A stretch of 64,000 nt of DNA, taken from the NCBI GenBank assembly GCA_021155965.1, contig JAJNBJ010000012.1, forward strand, positions 1 to 64,000, given 5' to 3'. A program made the position numbers and the translations under genes. Each line of letters begins with the position of its first letter. Positions within the stretch are counted from its first letter, which is position 1. This DNA comes from Flavipsychrobacter sp. (GTDB taxonomy: Bacteria; Bacteroidota; Bacteroidia; Chitinophagales; Chitinophagaceae). This document shows positions 28,307-49,949 of the stretch, piece by piece. A model generated the notes under the pieces. The model was not told the origin of the DNA and ran no database searches. It saw only the letters and a list, made by a program, of their open reading frames with translations.

Positions 28307-28691
28307 GCCCATCATTATAGGAAAAAGTAGGAACCAAAAAAAACCGTTAACAAAACCATTTATCCCCATTATAATGTGTACTTCCTGTTAATTGTTGTTG
28401 GCAACTAAAATACTTTGTGGAAATACCCCCGCTTTTCGGAACTTTATGGTAACAAACGGTGTATAAGATGTGCGGGGACTGCTTAAAATTTTACAAGCGC
28501 AAATTGTTTGCGATTATGAAAATCGCGTTTACATTCGTTTCACTCCTCCGGTTTTTAACCTTCACTTAATGATGGCGTAACAGTTTGGAAACATTGAAAA
28601 ATGTCCAATTCTGGCCCAAAATGAAGAAAAAATGTCCGGTAAGGACCGAAAAAACAATATTACAACTTACTATATAAGTACTACCCACAGA
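28307..28691. other. Intergenic region between divergent pheT and dnaB
   Basis: 385 bp without a gene. No clear TAnnTTTG box is seen for dnaB; a partial match, TACTTTG at about 28411, is nearest. An alternative dnaB start at 28632 lies here but lacks family similarity. No further structure was noticed. Confidence 0.5.
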
Positions 28692-30398
28692 ATGGCTGTA
28701 AATATTAAAAAAGATTTTGGTGGAACATCTCGCCGCAAACCCGACCTCACAACGCTGGTTTATGGTAAAGTCCCCCCCCAGGCCCCCGAGCTGGAAGAAG
28801 CAGTCCTTGGCGCCTGCATGCTCGAAAAAGACACTTTTGCCCAGGTACTGGAAATTATCCAGAGCGAGGAGTGTTTTTACATGGATGCCCACCAGAAGAT
28901 ATATGGTGCTATGCGCCGCCTCTTCGACAAGGGTACCCCCGTCGACCTTTTAACCATTACCGAAGAATTAAGAAAAGTAAACGAACTGGAGCTGGTAGGT
29001 GGTGCATATTACCTCACCCGTCTCACCATGAGCGTACTTTCCAGTGCGCACGTGGAGGCACACGCACGCATTGTGATGGAGAAATTCATCCAGCGCGAGC
29101 TGATACGCATCAGCGGGGCGGTGATAGGAGATGCCTACGAAGACAGCACCGATGTGTTCGACCTGCTGGACAAAGCAGAATCAAGCCTGTACGAAATTAC
29201 CGATAAGCACCTGCGCAAGAACTTCAAAAGCCTGAAGGATGTAATGGTGCGCACCGTGAGCGAGATAGAGGAGAACATGAAGAAGACGGACGACCTTACG
29301 GGTGTTCCATCCGGCTTCAAAGCGCTCGACAATCTCACTGCCGGCTGGCAGAAAACAGACCTTATCATCCTTGCGGCACGCCCGTCGGTGGGTAAAACGG
29401 CATTTGCGCTCAACCTGGCCATGAATGCAGCAATGAACGCAGGCAAGCAATTCCCCGTAGCTGTGTTCTCGTTAGAAATGGGTGCAGGGCAGATAGTAAA
29501 AAGGATGCTCAGCGCAGTTACCGAGGTGAGCATGGAGAGCATCACGCGCGGCAAAATGGCCGACCATGAGTTCATACAGATGACACAACGTATGGACAAG
29601 CTCTCCAAGGCAAAAATATTTCTCGATGACCAGGCAGCCCTCAACATCTTCGAGCTGCGTGCAAAAGCACGCAGACTCAAACAGAAGCATGGCATAGAGA
29701 TGATCATCATCGATTACCTCCAACTGATGCAAGCCACTGTCAACGGTGGCGGCAATCGTGAGCAGGAAATAAGTAAAATATCGCGCGACCTTAAGGCACT
29801 GGCAAAAGAGCTTGAAGTGCCGATAATAGCCCTCTCTCAGTTGAACCGTTCTGTAGAGAACCGTAAAGAATCGAAGATGCCGCAGCTAAGTGACCTGCGT
29901 GAATCGGGAGCGATAGAGCAGGATGCCGACCTCGTTATGTTCCTCTACAGGCCCGAGTATTACGGCATCAACAACGATGCAATGGGCGAGGCCATTGAGG
30001 GTGAAACACACATATCCATAGCCAAGCACCGTAACGGTAGCACAGGTGTCGAAAAACTGCGCTTCATCAAAGAATACCAGAAATTCGTTGACCTCGAAGA
30101 TAACCGCTTCAACAGCGGCGGTGGTTTTGGTGGTGGCAGCTTTGGCGGCGGTGGTGGAGGTTTCAATCCTGCCAATCCTGCTGGTCCAAAAGATAACCCA
30201 ATGGCAGGCATTCGCCGCGACCCAAGTGAATTCAGTGGCTCAAAAGTGTTCATACAACCCGGTGTGCAGCCCGGCTTCCAGACACGCCCCTCAAAAGCCA
30301 ACGATGTGAACTGGGACGAAGACGATATGCCTGGCGGAGGTGGTATTCCCGGCGGTTTCAGGAAGGCTCCGCCGCCCGATGAGGATGTACCGTTTTAA
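28692..30398 (+). CDS. dnaB: Replicative DNA helicase DnaB with SSB-like acidic tip
   Basis: Encodes 568 aa from ATG 28692, chosen because RRKPDLTTLVYGKVPPQAPE is the usual family N-terminus. The protein unwinds DNA at the fork. The N-terminal domain (about 30-140) is followed by a RecA-like ATPase domain with Walker A ARPSVGKTAFALNLA, Walker B MIIIDYLQLM and the arginine-finger region RNGSTGVEKL. After about residue 465 comes a long Gly-rich tail (GGGFGGGSFGGGGGG), and the last residues are PPDEDVPF, very like the SSB C-terminal tip (DDDIPF). This tail resembles that of SSB and may recruit the same partners. Confidence 0.96.
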   Translation: MAVNIKKDFGGTSRRKPDLTTLVYGKVPPQAPELEEAVLGACMLEKDTFAQVLEIIQSEECFYMDAHQKIYGAMRRLFDKGTPVDLLTITEELRKVNELELVGGAYYLTRLTMSVLSSAHVEAHARIVMEKFIQRELIRISGAVIGDAYEDSTDVFDLLDKAESSLYEITDKHLRKNFKSLKDVMVRTVSEIEENMKKTDDLTGVPSGFKALDNLTAGWQKTDLIILAARPSVGKTAFALNLAMNAAMNAGKQFPVAVFSLEMGAGQIVKRMLSAVTEVSMESITRGKMADHEFIQMTQRMDKLSKAKIFLDDQAALNIFELRAKARRLKQKHGIEMIIIDYLQLMQATVNGGGNREQEISKISRDLKALAKELEVPIIALSQLNRSVENRKESKMPQLSDLRESGAIEQDADLVMFLYRPEYYGINNDAMGEAIEGETHISIAKHRNGSTGVEKLRFIKEYQKFVDLEDNRFNSGGGFGGGSFGGGGGGFNPANPAGPKDNPMAGIRRDPSEFSGSKVFIQPGVQPGFQTRPSKANDVNWDEDDMPGGGGIPGGFRKAPPPDEDVPF

Positions 30399-33142: not shown

Positions 33143-33255
33143 GTTCGCGCATTCTGAAAATCCTATAATCCTTAAATCCTGATCCAGGTTAATTAATGTT
33201 AAAAAATAGAATATTATAATTATATTCCGTAAATTGGATAATAAAATTTGCGGTT

Positions 33256-33453
33256 ATGGCTGATTTATTATTATCAGGTGGTGGTTATCCTTCAGATAAT
33301 TGGCTGCCACTCATCTCACCACTGGTTGCGCTGGTAATTATATTGTACAGTGGTGACTTTATTATAAAGTTCATCAAAAAGCGCCGCACCATCAGGCACC
33401 ATTCCACCACCTATCTCGGCCAGCCTGATATTTTTAATAACATTGATCTTTGA
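33256..33453 (+). CDS. Tiny membrane protein, first of a tandem trio
   Basis: Encodes 65 aa with one membrane span (about residues 17-40, PLISPLVALVIILYSGDFII), a basic region (KKRRTIRHH) and a C-terminal extension. It shares with the next two genes the order LLL, NW-x-P, a hydrophobic span with Y and a Lys/Arg-His patch. A box close to TAnnTTTG (TAAAATTTG, one base longer) lies just upstream. No family is recognised. Confidence 0.6.
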   Translation: MADLLLSGGGYPSDNWLPLISPLVALVIILYSGDFIIKFIKKRRTIRHHSTTYLGQPDIFNNIDL

Positions 33454-33457
33454 ACCT

Positions 33458-33616
33458 ATGCAGGAGTTATTACTACGCGCAAACTGGGTCCCGTTCATCA
33501 TACCGGCAATTGCTGTGCTGCTTGGCTTGTATGCAGCAGAATATATCGCAATGCTTATTAGGAAGTGCTTACATAAAAGCCATAATACAGATGATCCTCA
33601 AACCCCTGACATATGA
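33458..33616 (+). CDS. Tiny membrane protein, second of a tandem trio
   Basis: Encodes 52 aa. It starts MQELLLRANWVPFIIPAIAV, has one span (about 9-34, ending EYIAML), then RKCLHKSHNTDDPQTPDI. The LLL-x-x-NW-x-P block and the R/K-x-x-L-H-K end match its neighbours. The stop TGA overlaps the ATG of the third gene (ATGA), so the two are coupled in translation. It lies 4 bp after the first gene. Confidence 0.6.
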   Translation: MQELLLRANWVPFIIPAIAVLLGLYAAEYIAMLIRKCLHKSHNTDDPQTPDI

Positions 33617-33759
33617 AAGAATTATTACTTGGAGTTGCTCCAAATGCCAACTGGATACCACTGTTTGGTGTGGTTATGGCGCCACTTGCTCTGTACTGCC
33701 TGGTAGCCTATACCGTTAAACTTATTAAGAGAAAGTTACATAAAAAGCCCGGTCAATAG
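33613..33759 (+). CDS. Tiny membrane protein, third of a tandem trio
   Basis: Encodes 48 aa starting MKELLLGVAPNANWIPLFGV. A single span (about 13-35) with the same NWIP and AxYxLxAY pattern is followed by KLIKRKLHKKPGQ. Starts within the stop of the second gene. The trio appears to be a recent tandem expansion. Function unknown. Confidence 0.6.
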   Translation: MKELLLGVAPNANWIPLFGVVMAPLALYCLVAYTVKLIKRKLHKKPGQ

Positions 33760-33779
33760 CTTGAATAAAATATTTGGGT

Positions 33780-33787
33780 TAATTTTG
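33780..33787 (+). promoter_or_regulatory. -7 box (TAATTTTG)
   Basis: Exact TAnnTTTG match 31 bp before the cysteine desulfurase start. Confidence 0.55.
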
Positions 33788-33818
33788 CGGGCTCTGTTCA
33801 AAACATAGCCTGCTGATA

Positions 33819-34952
33819 ATGAGCCGTATTTATTTTGATAATGCAGCCACCACCTCCCTCGATCCGGATGTACTGGAAGCCATGATGCCCTTCCTTACCG
33901 AAAAGTTTGGTAACCCATCATCTATCTATTCCTACGGCAGGGAAACCAAAATGGCTATAGAGAATGCCCGCAAAACAGTAGCCAAAATACTTAATGCTGC
34001 TCCCGGCGAGATATTCTTCACCTCCGGCGGCACAGAGAGTACTAATACGGCTGTTACGGCTGCTATTCGTGACTTAGGTTGTAAACACATCATCACATCA
34101 CGCATAGAGCACCATGCTACTTTACACACTGTAGAGCACATGGAGCATTTTAAACATGCTACATTGAGTTACGTTCGTCTCACAGATAAGGGCCATATAG
34201 ACCTCGCCCACCTGGAAGAATTATTGGCAGGTAATAAAGAGCGTTCATTAGTTACACTCATGCATGCTAACAACGAAGTCGGCAACCTGCTGAAAATAAA
34301 AGCCGTTGGTGAGCTCTGTAAAAAGTATGATGCCATCTTCCACAGCGACACTGTTCAGACAGTAGGCCATTATCCTTTAAACCTGAAGGATATTAATGTA
34401 CACTTCATCAATGGTGCTGGCCATAAGTTTCATGGGCCAAAAGGTGTAGGCATCCTTTACGTGAATGAGAATGTGCGCATCAAACCGCACCTGCATGGCG
34501 GTTCACAGGAGCGCAACATGCGTGCCGGCACCGAGAACCTGTATGGTATAGTTGGTTTTGCTAAGGCGCTGGAAATAGCCACTGAACGCTATGAACAGGA
34601 CAGCCAATACATAAAAGGCCTGAAAACATACATGGCTGAGAAGCTGCAGCAAAATTTTCCGGGCGTAAAATTTAATGGCGATACCAACGGCAGCAGTTTA
34701 TATACTGTGCTCAATGTCTCATTCCCTATGAATGAGAAGTCTGACATGCTGCTTTTCAACCTCGATATGGCAGGCATATGTGTAAGTGGCGGCAGCGCAT
34801 GCACCAGCGGTGCAAATGCGGTAAGCCACGTAATATCGGCCATCTACAATGGCCAGGCTACAGATATGGTGCCCATCCGTTTTTCATTCAGCAGGCATAA
34901 CACCAAAGAAGAAATAGATACAGTACTCGAAAAACTAAAAGAACTGGTATAG
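33819..34952 (+). CDS. Cysteine desulfurase (NifS/IscS family)
   Basis: Encodes 377 aa. The PLP enzyme removes sulfur from cysteine as a persulfide for iron-sulfur clusters or tRNA thiolation. The Lys that binds PLP lies in GAGHKFHGPKGVG, a conserved His-Ala-Asn segment is MHANNEVGN, and the catalytic Cys lies in GGSACTSGANAVSHV. The short loop around that Cys suits the IscS/NifS (group I) type. No iscU or other cluster gene is next to it. The adjacent membrane protein gene at 34963 is unrelated. Confidence 0.93.
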   Translation: MSRIYFDNAATTSLDPDVLEAMMPFLTEKFGNPSSIYSYGRETKMAIENARKTVAKILNAAPGEIFFTSGGTESTNTAVTAAIRDLGCKHIITSRIEHHATLHTVEHMEHFKHATLSYVRLTDKGHIDLAHLEELLAGNKERSLVTLMHANNEVGNLLKIKAVGELCKKYDAIFHSDTVQTVGHYPLNLKDINVHFINGAGHKFHGPKGVGILYVNENVRIKPHLHGGSQERNMRAGTENLYGIVGFAKALEIATERYEQDSQYIKGLKTYMAEKLQQNFPGVKFNGDTNGSSLYTVLNVSFPMNEKSDMLLFNLDMAGICVSGGSACTSGANAVSHVISAIYNGQATDMVPIRFSFSRHNTKEEIDTVLEKLKELV

Positions 34953-45493: not shown

Positions 45494-46732
45494 ATGCTTC
45501 AGTTCGAACGGTTTACATTGAATAATGGGTTAAGGGTACTGGTACATATTGATAAAGCTACCCCAATGGTGGCTATGAATATACTGTATGATGTAGGCGC
45601 ACGCGATGAGGAGGCCAACCGCACCGGCTTTGCACACCTGTTCGAGCACCTGATGTTTGGCGGCAGCATGAATATACCCGTATATGATGAGCCGCTGCAA
45701 ATGGCAGGCGGCGAGAATAATGCCTACACCACCAACGATATTACCAACTACCACCTGCAGATTCCGCTCAAAAATATAGAGACCGCCTTCTGGCTGGAGA
45801 GCGACCGCATGCTATCCCTCGCCTTCAGCGAAAAAAGCCTCGATGTGCAGCGCAAAGTGGTGTGCGAGGAATTCAAAGAGCACTACCTGAACAAACCATA
45901 CGGCGATGCATGGCACCTGATGCGCAAGATCGCATACAAGCAGCACCCCTACCAGTGGCCAACCATAGGCATGAACCTGGAACAGATAGAGACAGCCCAA
46001 CTGGACGATGTGAAAGCCTTTTTTTATAAGCACTACAACCCCTTGAACGCTGTGATGTGTGTAGCCGGCAATATCACCGTGAAGCAGGTAAAAGAATTAT
46101 CAGAAAGATGGTTTGGCAATATACCCTCCGGCGATAAATACGTTCGTAATGTAGCTGCAGAGCCTGCGCAACAGGAAGCACGCACACAAACCGTGCATGC
46201 AGATGTGCCGCTGGATGCGTTGTACAAAGCATGGCACATAGGCCCAAGGCTTACCCCACCCTACTATGCCACTGACCTGATAACAGAGATAATGGGCAGC
46301 GGCTTTGCATCGCGCCTGTACCAGCGGCTGGTAAAAGAAGAGCAGTTGTTCAGCAACATCAACTGCTACCACACAGGCAGCCTGGATCCCGGGCTGGTAG
46401 TGATAGAAGGAAAGATACGCGAAGGCAAAAGCATAGAAGCAGCCAACGAAGCTGTGGAGGCCGAACTGGCAAAGCTTGTAGCCGGTGGCGTAACCGACGA
46501 TGAACTGCAAAAAGCAAAAAATAAAATAGAGGCAATGATCGCCTTTGAAGATATGACACTGCTGAGCCGCGCCAACAACCTCGCCTTCTACGAGCTCATG
46601 GGCGATGCCGCAATGATCAATAAAGAATGGGACCACTACCAATCCGTAACAAAAGATTTCCTCCGGGAAACCGCGCAACAAATTTTCAGAACAGAGAATA
46701 GCAACACACTATTCTACAAAAAGAAAACATAA
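45494..46732 (+). CDS. M16 family zinc metallopeptidase
   Basis: Encodes 412 aa, no signal peptide seen, so probably cytoplasmic. The inverted zinc motif HLFEHLMFGG (HxxEH, about residues 46-55) is present, and the downstream Glu ligand is probably in VVCEEFKEHYLNKPYGDAWH (about 126-145). A second, inactive-type M16 domain fills the C-terminal half (from about 165), with RLYQRLVKEEQLFSNI. Many Bacteroidota carry two adjacent M16 genes; only one is seen here, and the gene is followed by a terminator before the ftsZ gene. Confidence 0.92.
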   Translation: MLQFERFTLNNGLRVLVHIDKATPMVAMNILYDVGARDEEANRTGFAHLFEHLMFGGSMNIPVYDEPLQMAGGENNAYTTNDITNYHLQIPLKNIETAFWLESDRMLSLAFSEKSLDVQRKVVCEEFKEHYLNKPYGDAWHLMRKIAYKQHPYQWPTIGMNLEQIETAQLDDVKAFFYKHYNPLNAVMCVAGNITVKQVKELSERWFGNIPSGDKYVRNVAAEPAQQEARTQTVHADVPLDALYKAWHIGPRLTPPYYATDLITEIMGSGFASRLYQRLVKEEQLFSNINCYHTGSLDPGLVVIEGKIREGKSIEAANEAVEAELAKLVAGGVTDDELQKAKNKIEAMIAFEDMTLLSRANNLAFYELMGDAAMINKEWDHYQSVTKDFLRETAQQIFRTENSNTLFYKKKT

Positions 46733-46738
46733 AAAAAT

Positions 46739-46760
46739 GCTCCCGTTAGAAAACGGGAGC
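46739..46760. terminator. Terminator between M16 gene and ftsZ
   Basis: A stem GCTCCCGTT/AACGGGAGC with loop AGAA, preceded by an A-run, lies between the two convergent genes. For the leftward dcw transcript the A-run reads as T. Confidence 0.8.
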
Positions 46761-46791
46761 CTACGCAATATAAATAAACAAAAGAAACAAC

Positions 46792-48456
46792 TTAGTCCGG
46801 CTTTTTGCCGTCGAGGAATGTATTGATAGTTTGTATTGCTGCCTGCGGATTGTTCTGGTTATCGTTCATCCCCACAGAGTAGCCACTGTAATAAGGGTCA
46901 GAAGAGGCCACCTGGTTGTCCAGCTTCATATTCTTACGCATGTATGCAGGAACATTTTCCATCTCATCGCTGCTATCCGTGCCTTTTATATTAAAGCTCA
47001 TACGGCGCAGGCGCTCAGCACGGTCTTCAAGTGCTTTCTTCTGCTCCTCGAACCTTCTCTTCTCTTCGATCTCATCCGCAGAAAGAAAACGCTCACCTAT
47101 CTTCATTACAGGTTGCTCTTCAACCGGCTCATTTTTCATAACCAGTTGCATAGGTATCTCTTCTGCCTTCCGTTCCTCCTCCCCGAAAACGGGTACATCA
47201 ATTACGGTCATAACAGGCTCCTCGGCCACCACCATAACCGGCTGTTCAACTATAGGCTCCGGTTGCACTTCAGGTTCTGTGCGGTTGGCAAATGCTTCAG
47301 CCGGCCTGAAGTCATACACCGTGTTTACAACCGGCTGCATCTCCACCAATGTAGGAGACATGCTCTCGGGTTGCCTTACCACCTGCTTCAGTTCAGGAAT
47401 ATGTACTTCAGCCGGCGTGTTTATTTCACCGAGCTTCACTACTATCTTTTCAGGCTCATTGTTCTTCGCAGGATACTCTGATTTGATATCCTTGTGGTTG
47501 AAACCTGTAGCAATTACAGTCACCGCGATCCGCTCATGCAGGTTAGGATCGTGGCCCATACCCAGGATAACATCGCAATTATCACCAGCCTGTTGCTGCA
47601 CATATGCCTGTATAGCCTCTGCCTCATCCATAGTATGTTCGTGCTCACCGGCAGCAGATGTAATGTTGAGGAGTAACCACTTAGCGCCGCGGATGTCATT
47701 GTCATTCAGCAATGGCGAGCTTAATGCTTCTTCCACAGCCATCAGTGCTCGGTTCTCACCTGTAGCCGATGCACTGCCAAGGATCGCAACACCGCCGTTC
47801 TTCATTACCGTACAAACGTCAGCAAAGTCAACATTTATCTGTCCTGTAGTAGTGATCACATCAGTGATACATTTTGCAGCCGTAGCCAGTATATCATCAG
47901 CCTTTGCAAACGCCTGCGTGAATGGCAGGTTGCCAAACTGCTGGCGCAGCTTATCATTAGAGATGATGAGTATAGTATCCACATGATCGCGCATTCGGTC
48001 AATGCCTTCCTGTGCCTGTTTCATACGCTTGCGGCCCTCATAAGTGAACGGCGTGGTAACGATACCCACTGTGAGGATACCGAGATCGCGGCATATTTTC
48101 GCTACCACAGGAGCACCACCAGTACCGGTGCCGCCACCCATACCTGCTGTAATAAACGCCATGCGTGTATTTACCTTCAATATCTTGGAAACATCCTCAA
48201 GGCTCTCCTCGCACGATTGCTTACCGATCTCGGGGTTAGCGCCGGCGCCAAGGCCTTGTGTGAGGTGCGGGCCAAGCTGTATTTTATTGGCAACAGGACT
48301 AAGCGCCAGCGCCTGTGAATCTGTATTGCATACCACAAAATCCACTCCTTCAATACCAAGGTTATGCATATAGTTCACGGCGTTGCTTCCGCCGCCGCCT
48401 ACACCTATTACTTTAATGATCGATGACTGATTCTTTGGAATTTCGAAATGTATCAT
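46792..48456 (-). CDS. ftsZ: Cell division protein FtsZ
   Basis: Encodes 554 aa. The tubulin-like GTPase forms the Z ring. The GTP-binding signature GMGGGTGTGGAPVVAK is at about residue 103-118, and the N-terminus VIGVGGGGSNAVNYMH is typical. After the ~320-residue globular part comes a long variable linker rich in Glu, Val and Pro (e.g. EPEVQPEPIVEQPVMVVAEEP), and a conserved C-terminal peptide (AIQTINTFLDGKKPD) binds FtsA. The 68-bp gap to ftsA and the terminator downstream end the dcw cluster. Confidence 0.98.
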   Translation of the reverse strand: MIHFEIPKNQSSIIKVIGVGGGGSNAVNYMHNLGIEGVDFVVCNTDSQALALSPVANKIQLGPHLTQGLGAGANPEIGKQSCEESLEDVSKILKVNTRMAFITAGMGGGTGTGGAPVVAKICRDLGILTVGIVTTPFTYEGRKRMKQAQEGIDRMRDHVDTILIISNDKLRQQFGNLPFTQAFAKADDILATAAKCITDVITTTGQINVDFADVCTVMKNGGVAILGSASATGENRALMAVEEALSSPLLNDNDIRGAKWLLLNITSAAGEHEHTMDEAEAIQAYVQQQAGDNCDVILGMGHDPNLHERIAVTVIATGFNHKDIKSEYPAKNNEPEKIVVKLGEINTPAEVHIPELKQVVRQPESMSPTLVEMQPVVNTVYDFRPAEAFANRTEPEVQPEPIVEQPVMVVAEEPVMTVIDVPVFGEEERKAEEIPMQLVMKNEPVEEQPVMKIGERFLSADEIEEKRRFEEQKKALEDRAERLRRMSFNIKGTDSSDEMENVPAYMRKNMKLDNQVASSDPYYSGYSVGMNDNQNNPQAAIQTINTFLDGKKPD

Positions 48457-48524
48457 ATTGCTTCTTTTGCAGGTTAGTAAATAAAATGGTTAGTTGTGTT
48501 TGTTTATAATTTATATGCAGTTAA

Positions 48525-49949
48525 TTACTCAATTTCCTGGTCATCTACATCTTCAAACATCTTCATGAACTTTCCTTTCAATCCATCGAACAAGCGCTTT
48601 ACATTCTCGTTCCGCTTTCGCGCTTTTTGCCTGTTTGTTTCCATTTGCTCTTCAGCAGTAGGCGCATCTTCTTCTATAGCTTCCGGCTGTACTGTTTCCT
48701 GTATATCAGCAACAAGCGCCTGCATATCCTCTGCAGGTAAGTGCATGTAATTGCCGCCTTCTCCGGTAAATCGCAACTTGCCATTCTCATAATCATGATA
48801 GCCACGTAGTATGAGTCCGATACAGGTTGAGTACATTGGGTTCATCAATGACTCTTTGTCGCCGCCAGCAAGATGCTCGTTAGGATAGCCTATGCGTGCA
48901 CCCAATCCTGTAACAAATTCTGTAAGCTGCGTAATGTGCTTTAACTGTGCTCCGCCGCCGGTAAGGATAATACCACCGTACAAACGCTTGTCCAGGTCTA
49001 TCTGTTTCAGGTGATATACGACATAGTCGAGTATCTCCTGCATACGCGCCTGGATGATGTGCGCAAGGTTCTTAACCGATATTTCTTTGGGTGGCAATCC
49101 ACGCAGGCCGGGTATGGTAATGTATGCATTGGCATTGGCTTCTTCAGCCAATGCAGTACCAAACTGCACTTTCATTTGCTCTGCCTGAGCCCTCAGCACT
49201 CCAAGGCCGTTACGAATATCGTTGGTGATATTTACACCGGCATAAGGGATAACCGCAGTGTGTTTTAAGATACCATCGTAGAACACTGCCATATCGGTAG
49301 TGCCACCGCCAATGTCAACTATAGCAACACCGGCCTCAAGATCCTCATCATTCATTACGGCAGCAGCCGATGCTAATGGCTGTAGTACAAGATCGCGTGT
49401 TATCAGTTTTGACCTGTCGACGCAGCGCTTGATGTTGCGGATGGCATTGCGATCGCCAGTGATGATGTGGAAGTTGGCGCCTATCTTAACGCCGCTCATA
49501 CCTATCGGGTCAACCACATACGCTGTACTGTCAACCGTGAAATCCTGCGGAATGATATCTATTATCTGGTCTCCCGCAGGAATATAGGTGCGATGCTGAT
49601 CACGCACCAACAGTTCTATGTCTTCTTTACCTATTTCTGATTCAACATTTGTGCGTACCCTGTCGCCACGGGTTTGCAGGCTTTTTATATGCTGGCCGGC
49701 AATACCCACGTATACCTCTTTTACCTCAAGGTTTGGATTAGAAAGGATACACCTTTCTATAGCCTGCTCGATAGAGCGGATACATTGCTCGATATTCATC
49801 ACCACCCCATGGCTAACTCCAGCAGAGTCGGCGCGCCCCATACCGAGAATCTCCACTTTACCGAATTCGTTTTTGCGACCAGCGATAGCAACCACTTTTG
49901 TGGTACCAATATCCAGGCCTACGATAATTGGTTGTTCTTTCCTATTCAT
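48525..49949 (-). CDS. ftsA: Cell division protein FtsA
   Basis: Encodes 474 aa, an actin-like ATPase that tethers FtsZ to the membrane. The N-terminus has the phosphate-binding VGLDIGTTKVVAIAG, a 1C domain follows, and a second phosphate motif is GVAIVDIGGGTTDMAVFY with LTGGGAQLKHI. The C-terminus is a long Lys/Glu region ending in an amphipathic helix-like segment (KRLFDGLKGKFMKMFED) that fits the membrane-targeting sequence. Confidence 0.97.
   Translation of the reverse strand: MNRKEQPIIVGLDIGTTKVVAIAGRKNEFGKVEILGMGRADSAGVSHGVVMNIEQCIRSIEQAIERCILSNPNLEVKEVYVGIAGQHIKSLQTRGDRVRTNVESEIGKEDIELLVRDQHRTYIPAGDQIIDIIPQDFTVDSTAYVVDPIGMSGVKIGANFHIITGDRNAIRNIKRCVDRSKLITRDLVLQPLASAAAVMNDEDLEAGVAIVDIGGGTTDMAVFYDGILKHTAVIPYAGVNITNDIRNGLGVLRAQAEQMKVQFGTALAEEANANAYITIPGLRGLPPKEISVKNLAHIIQARMQEILDYVVYHLKQIDLDKRLYGGIILTGGGAQLKHITQLTEFVTGLGARIGYPNEHLAGGDKESLMNPMYSTCIGLILRGYHDYENGKLRFTGEGGNYMHLPAEDMQALVADIQETVQPEAIEEDAPTAEEQMETNRQKARKRNENVKRLFDGLKGKFMKMFEDVDDQEIE

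Follow-up and report, generated by a model that had tools for sequence, protein, structure and literature searches.

Tandem genes for tiny predicted membrane proteins

The stretch of DNA analysed here (the window) comprises 64,000 nucleotides of a Flavipsychrobacter sp. genome (contig JAJNBJ010000012.1). Three short consecutive genes lie on its forward strand, with promoter-like features on either side:

33188–33202, + strand: regulatory box GTTAATTAATGTTAA, a direct repeat GTTAA-N5-GTTAA, putative response-regulator site
33230–33237, + strand: -7-like element TAAATTGG of the Bacteroidota TAnnTTTG type, at a fixed distance from the box
33256–33453, + strand: tiny membrane protein 1 (ORF1), 65 aa, ATG start
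33458–33616, + strand: tiny membrane protein 2 (ORF2), 52 aa, ATG start
33613–33759, + strand: tiny membrane protein 3 (ORF3), 48 aa, ATG start, overlapping the ORF2 stop (ATGA)
33780–33787, + strand: TAATTTTG, probably a promoter element in its own right for the cysteine desulfurase gene that follows, marking the boundary of the unit

A sequence-only reading of the window had described the trio as tandem paralogous single-span membrane proteins, and this was borne out in position, spacing and order of features. ORF1 and ORF2 are 4 bp apart, ORF2 and ORF3 overlap by the ATGA at 33613–33616, and all three translations, read directly, run from LLL through NW-L/V/I-P and a hydrophobic span with Y to a tail rich in K, R and H. 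A family profile detects ORF1, ORF2 and ORF3 at E-values of 9.5e-21, 1.4e-12 and 5.3e-14, partly by construction since the profile contains these sequences. A search with ORF3 alone (40 relatives) matched a relative from another species of the genus at E 1.2e-8, several weaker ones, and its own two neighbours only weakly (E 0.15 and 0.32). In the family tree, ORF2 and ORF3 stand out as the most diverged, on long branches. We regard it as virtually certain that the three ORFs are real genes. Four genes separate them from dnaB (28632–30398), and the sequence is best read as a separate operon encoding three paralogous proteins, predicted to be single-pass and to lie in the inner membrane.

The small single-pass plan is upheld by prediction across the family, with members of 42–72 aa in the alignment and one hydrophobic span each. 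The Trp is invariant in 37 aligned members, [ND]W is found in 36 of them and W-x-P in 31, and near the end of the span many members carry D, E or Q. AlphaFold2 models ORF1 as one helix (16–48) with a block pLDDT of 93–94 in the span and weak ends (mean 72). In all 37 members, the C-terminal flank of the span carries more basic residues than the N-terminal one. Because the positive-inside rule orients the basic side to the cytoplasm, the predicted topology is N-out/C-in, with a short N-terminus bearing NW-x-P, the putative interface motif, outside and a cytoplasmic basic tail.

Distribution and selection

Profile searches found homologues in 21 of the 35 genus genomes at E<1e-10. A looser cut gave 22/35, and the extra genome (G019) was dropped for stops inside the frame; weak matches with internal stops or in large frames (e.g. 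G019, G009, G020:C22) were left out of all counts. Members with the same plan also occur in other genera (G477, G394, G440, G334, G248, G186, G387, G300 and G290, among 294 same-family genomes sampled). The prospect that the proteins might have no homologues anywhere can thus be set aside. A phylum search of 395 genomes gave no accepted member outside the GTDB family, and an order-wide search gave nothing strong outside it, the same-family match G186 being retained. Phylum matches outside the family sit inside BatD/DUF4381-like proteins (by eye) of ~320–344 aa, at an NWLL-type span, and we read them as convergence.

Searches of Pfam, NCBIfam, PHROG and PADLOC with single members and with 33 members gave no convincing family; the best PHROG match, phrog_28789 (5 members, E 7e-5), has no assigned function. 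An early idea that the N-terminus resembles YajC was dropped when the Pfam scans gave no YajC match.

The peptides are found at a dnaB and/or cysteine desulfurase (nifS) locus in 16 of the 21 carrier genomes of the genus. Copy number, which the sequence-only reading had proposed to check between strains, varies between species, with 1, 2 or 3 copies at this locus. In G006 and G048 the contig ends before the full locus. In G049 another gene precedes nifS, and in G008 a toxin-antitoxin-like pair does so, a type II pair resembling RelBE by eye (L031:2057-2513) between the peptide cluster and nifS. The G012 members and the second G011 copy lie elsewhere, and a PGSP-PDW variant stands upstream of guaB (named by eye) in G015, G020, G040 and G045 (L038–L041).

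NG86 estimates of dN/dS for eight close orthologue pairs range from 0.06 to 0.45 and none approaches 1; these values are rough, as synonymous sites are mostly saturated, and the pairs come from other species, with the trio's own ORFs excluded. In two of these genome pairs the dN/dS of NifS is 0.02–0.03, so the peptides evolve several times faster (dN 0.11–0.33 for the peptides vs 0.02–0.04 for NifS in the same pairs). By these sequence comparisons, the peptides are under purifying selection. In the tree, neither the first-gene nor the second-gene group forms one clade, with five changes each.

A conserved box upstream of the peptide genes

The upstream regions of the family align on the box, with a TAnnTTnG element 42–43 bp after the box start; TAnnTTTG is what we take to be the Bacteroidota -7 consensus. 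At the trio, the start codon follows 18 bp after the -7 element. Within 33181–33830, TAATTTTG is the only TAnnTTTG on the plus strand, and a consensus scan of the minus strand, which can miss a promoter, gave no match.

Each cluster has the box at a single gene. This is the first gene except in G016, where the box precedes the second. GTTAA-N5-GTTAA lies within 150 bp upstream of 19/32 family leader genes, vs a Markov expectation of 0.06. The enrichment extends to leaders that lie outside the genus or are not the main leader of the nifS locus (6/16, vs 0.03 expected), and a GTTAA-N4-GTTA form precedes another three leaders, all from one genus. The exact 15-mer GTTAATTAATGTTAA has a single copy in the trio's own 4.25-Mb genome and 15 copies in the 35 genus genomes, 13 of which sit 68–72 bp upstream of a family gene. 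The other two (G003 and G024; L237 and L242) have no ORF behind them and may mark an RNA gene or a lost gene.

Conservation of the box is incomplete. The G008 box carries one mismatch, and at guaB, G040 has its box at a greater upstream distance while G045 and G020 have theirs inverted. No recognisable box, whether missing or decayed, was found at the leaders in G003, G024, G012 and G015 or at the first gene of G016, and none precedes the second paralogues that were read in genus g133 (three genomes).

Copies of the 15-mer with a single mismatch (60 places examined) are mostly unrelated to the family. In several species (L198, L209, L215, L224, L234, L243) a near-copy runs into the ATG of a gene that encodes a membrane protein of 261 aa or more, by eye similar to CAAX proteases; this near-copy may be coincidence. 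Our literature search gave no match for the 15-mer.

The promoter class is shared with a two-component operon

The promoter was generalised to the class GTTAANNNNNGTTAA-N26..29-TANNTTNG, which has 39 matches in the 35 genus genomes vs 4 (summed by hand) in the reversed control. The trio's own genome has three class promoters, vs none in the reversed control: that of the trio, that of a 797-aa CarboxypepD_reg/OMP_b-brl_3 outer-membrane protein (C14:302648), and that of a histidine kinase–response regulator operon. At the family level the pattern is present in 114/294 genomes, where the control is also high (~61 matches, counted by hand) and single sites mean little. A few class sites resemble chance (nuoM-like and enolase-like genes). 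The sequence-only reading had stated that the neighbours explain nothing; this holds for the adjacent genes, and the lead came instead from the promoter and from a distant operon with the same promoter class.

Genes for CarboxypepD_reg-like proteins with outer-membrane barrels repeatedly have the class promoter and are probably a conserved target (G000:C14:302581-305041 = L303; L283, L290–L295, L298, L300, L301; only L303 was Pfam-scanned). A 271–272-aa alpha/beta hydrolase with a signal-like N-terminus has it in four genomes (L280, L282, L284, L288). Since the hydrolase and barrel genes also have the promoter, the peptides would be one output among several.

The operon that shares the promoter lies outside the window:

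G000:C33:46799-48847 (region read 46721–48847, L302): histidine kinase (438 aa) and OmpR/PhoB-type, RprY-like response regulator (230 aa, 48155–48847)

Its domains, HisKA, HATPase_c, Response_reg and Trans_reg_C, all score above cut-off (E 8.2e-12, 1.4e-22, 6.5e-27 and 9.9e-17), which identifies it by profile as an OmpR/PhoB-family two-component system. Thirteen genus genomes have an exact class promoter in front of the kinase (G000, which is the trio's own, G003, G008, G011, G012, G015, G017, G020, G044, G045, G046, G047 and G049; for G003 and G008 the reading covered just the kinase part, and in G047 the kinase frame appears interrupted in the assembly). G013 also has the box before the kinase operon. 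Outside the genus, GTTAA-N5-GTTAA precedes the kinase in G248, G394, G440 and G477, and a three-half-site variant does so in G334 (L304–L315 include kinase loci). The middle bases differ, with GTTAATTAATGTTAA at the peptide genes and GTTAAATAAGGTTAA at most kinase boxes.

We then compared the occurrence of kinase, box and peptide. The kinase was searched by sequence in 18 genomes (E<=1e-60). Among them were nine peptide-less genus genomes; it was not found in eight of these, and the ninth, G013, has it. Those eight kinase-less genomes hold one class site in total and no peptide. By comparison, the 14 genomes with the kinase operon hold 25 class sites, or 12 excluding the kinase's own (binomial p 0.04, a value that ignores shared descent, as the eight genomes may be one clade). 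All 12 genus peptide carriers with known kinase status have the kinase; the remaining 9 of the 21 carriers fall outside that count, and the kinase carriers were mostly found via the box, so that this sample is not independent. Outside the genus, a box stands at the main peptide gene in 5/5 kinase-bearing peptide carriers (GTTAA-N5-GTTAA in two of them, GTTAA-N4-GTTA in three) and in 0/4 carriers without the kinase (Fisher p 0.008, which overstates independence, as four of the five kinase-bearing carriers are one genus).

Taken from sequence comparison, a regulatory link between the trio and the two-component system is likely. OmpR-family dimers bind direct repeats spaced by roughly one turn of the helix ahead of a promoter, and the box would be such a site. 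The place of the box relative to the promoter fits activation rather than repression, and its presence before the kinase operon implies autoregulation. The comparisons also indicate that the peptides are frequent outputs of the regulon and not its core, because some members have no box, the orientation and distance of the box vary at guaB, and the kinase operon is present in G013 and G017, where no peptide was found; in some genera the family exists without the link. At no locus read are the peptides adjacent to the kinase genes.

Comparison with known systems

Most of the known small membrane proteins that tune sensor kinases come from enterobacteria. The trio is comparable to MgrB, which is 47 aa long, belongs to the PhoQ/PhoP regulon and inhibits PhoQ (PMC8404706, PMC10576120, PMC7808668); a Trp and polar residues in its span are functionally important (PMC8404706). 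Both are small proteins with a single membrane span, predicted in the case of the trio. MgrB is produced under an OmpR-family two-component system (PMC8404706), and the trio would be as well. However, the predicted N-out/C-in topology is opposite to that of MgrB, and the trio consists of tandem paralogues from another phylum; MgrB-like feedback here is an analogy. Membership of the MgrB family was rejected given this topology and because no MgrB model is among the Pfam/NCBIfam matches of 33 members (E<=0.1).

The regulator of the box-bearing operon best fits the NCBIfam model for RprY (NF051850), of the RprX/RprY system of Bacteroides and Porphyromonas. Its score of 198.9 bits is below the 370-bit cut-off, so it is a relative of RprY rather than RprY itself. 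RprY of P. gingivalis binds its own promoter (PMC3646045). The accessible parts of the RprX/RprY literature gave no small membrane proteins.

The box itself is almost identical in its letters to GTTAATTAAATGTTA, which we take to be the ArcA consensus, an OmpR-family operator with a direct GTTA repeat. There the half-sites are 11 bp apart vs 10 here, and the regulator and phylum are different. We recognised no literature on such peptides or such a box in Bacteroidota, in a search whose coverage mostly excluded subscription journals. Small membrane proteins in two-component regulons are a known idea; for these peptides and their box, the databases and literature searched gave no described family.

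Proposed mechanism and alternatives

We propose that the autoregulated two-component system would switch the trio on through the GTTAA-N5-GTTAA box, whose start lies 42–43 bp upstream of the -7 element. Most likely, the peptides would then act back from within the membrane on the sensor kinase, or on envelope proteins that the kinase guards, much as MgrB acts on PhoQ. The copies would have been duplicated and then diverged to adjust binding. The trio proteins probably serve as small switches or helpers in a circuit that senses the envelope, one for which our searches gave no description. The sequence-only reading had listed subunits of small membrane complexes among its guesses; if the peptides are such subunits, the sensor kinase is the leading candidate partner. 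As a whole, the proposal of two-component-driven peptides that act back on the kinase or on guarded envelope proteins is tentative, with prospects somewhat short of even. Feedback on the kinase is favoured by analogy, and an effector role in the envelope comes close behind. A more specific version, in which the diverged tandem paralogues from one regulator-driven operon combine with the kinase or with each other as a tunable sensor accessory, is doubtful; each species would then set the gain and input specificity of a conserved envelope two-component system through the copy number and span sequence of these peptides.

In the envelope effector case, the peptides belong to the same regulon and stabilise the membrane or modulate a transporter, protease or secretion system, with no contact to the kinase. 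We consider this quite possible but less probable than not. The other genes read with the class promoter are envelope-related (CarboxypepD_reg/OMP_b-brl_3 barrels and the exported-looking hydrolase), and the faster divergence of the peptides relative to NifS suits varied targets. The presence of the kinase operon in G013 and G017, which have no peptides, points the same way. However, no partner gene travels with the peptides, whose loci vary (dnaB/nifS, guaB and others). A link to the neighbours, dnaB and the cysteine desulfurase, is a further alternative, in which the likeness of the boxes is coincidental or due to another OmpR-type regulator. It would account for the synteny in 16 genus genomes and for the different middle bases of the peptide and kinase boxes. 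It is unlikely in view of the unlinked relatives (G011:C53 and G248), which carry the same kind of promoter as the trio, and of the tendency of kinase and box to be absent together. In addition, nifS has its own promoter motif and occurs without the peptides in many genomes.

The sequence-only reading had also raised toxic and bacteriocin-like peptides, and neither guess gained support. Size, single span, basic tail and tandem chromosomal copies do recall type I toxins of the Ldr, Fst and Hok kind, and ORF3 has a weak PHROG holin match, which at E 0.36 is the best holin match in PHROG or Pfam and is too weak for membership. Unlike those toxins, the trio has no sign of an antisense RNA or a long leader: the minus strand of 33181–33830 has no TAnnTTTG, no Rfam family scores above its gathering score, and the distance from the -7 element to the start codon is short, therefore leaving no room for a long structured leader. 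Viral contigs gave 10 pattern matches and no confirmed relative, and the promoter class is common to a two-component operon. That the peptides depolarise the membrane of their own cell, as type I toxins or holins would, thus has only a slight probability. Secreted or leaderless bacteriocin-like peptides would also be small, cationic and encoded in tandem. We consider them highly improbable, since the ORF lists around the clusters, read by eye, showed no export or immunity genes and the family is also found at unrelated loci.

If the proposal is correct, this family of uncultivated Chitinophagaceae, identified purely from sequence, would bring with it its regulator candidate, its operator, which is defined, and its co-regulated genes, and its function would be directly testable. 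Following the promoter rather than the neighbours may also be a cheap path to the function of unannotated ORFs.
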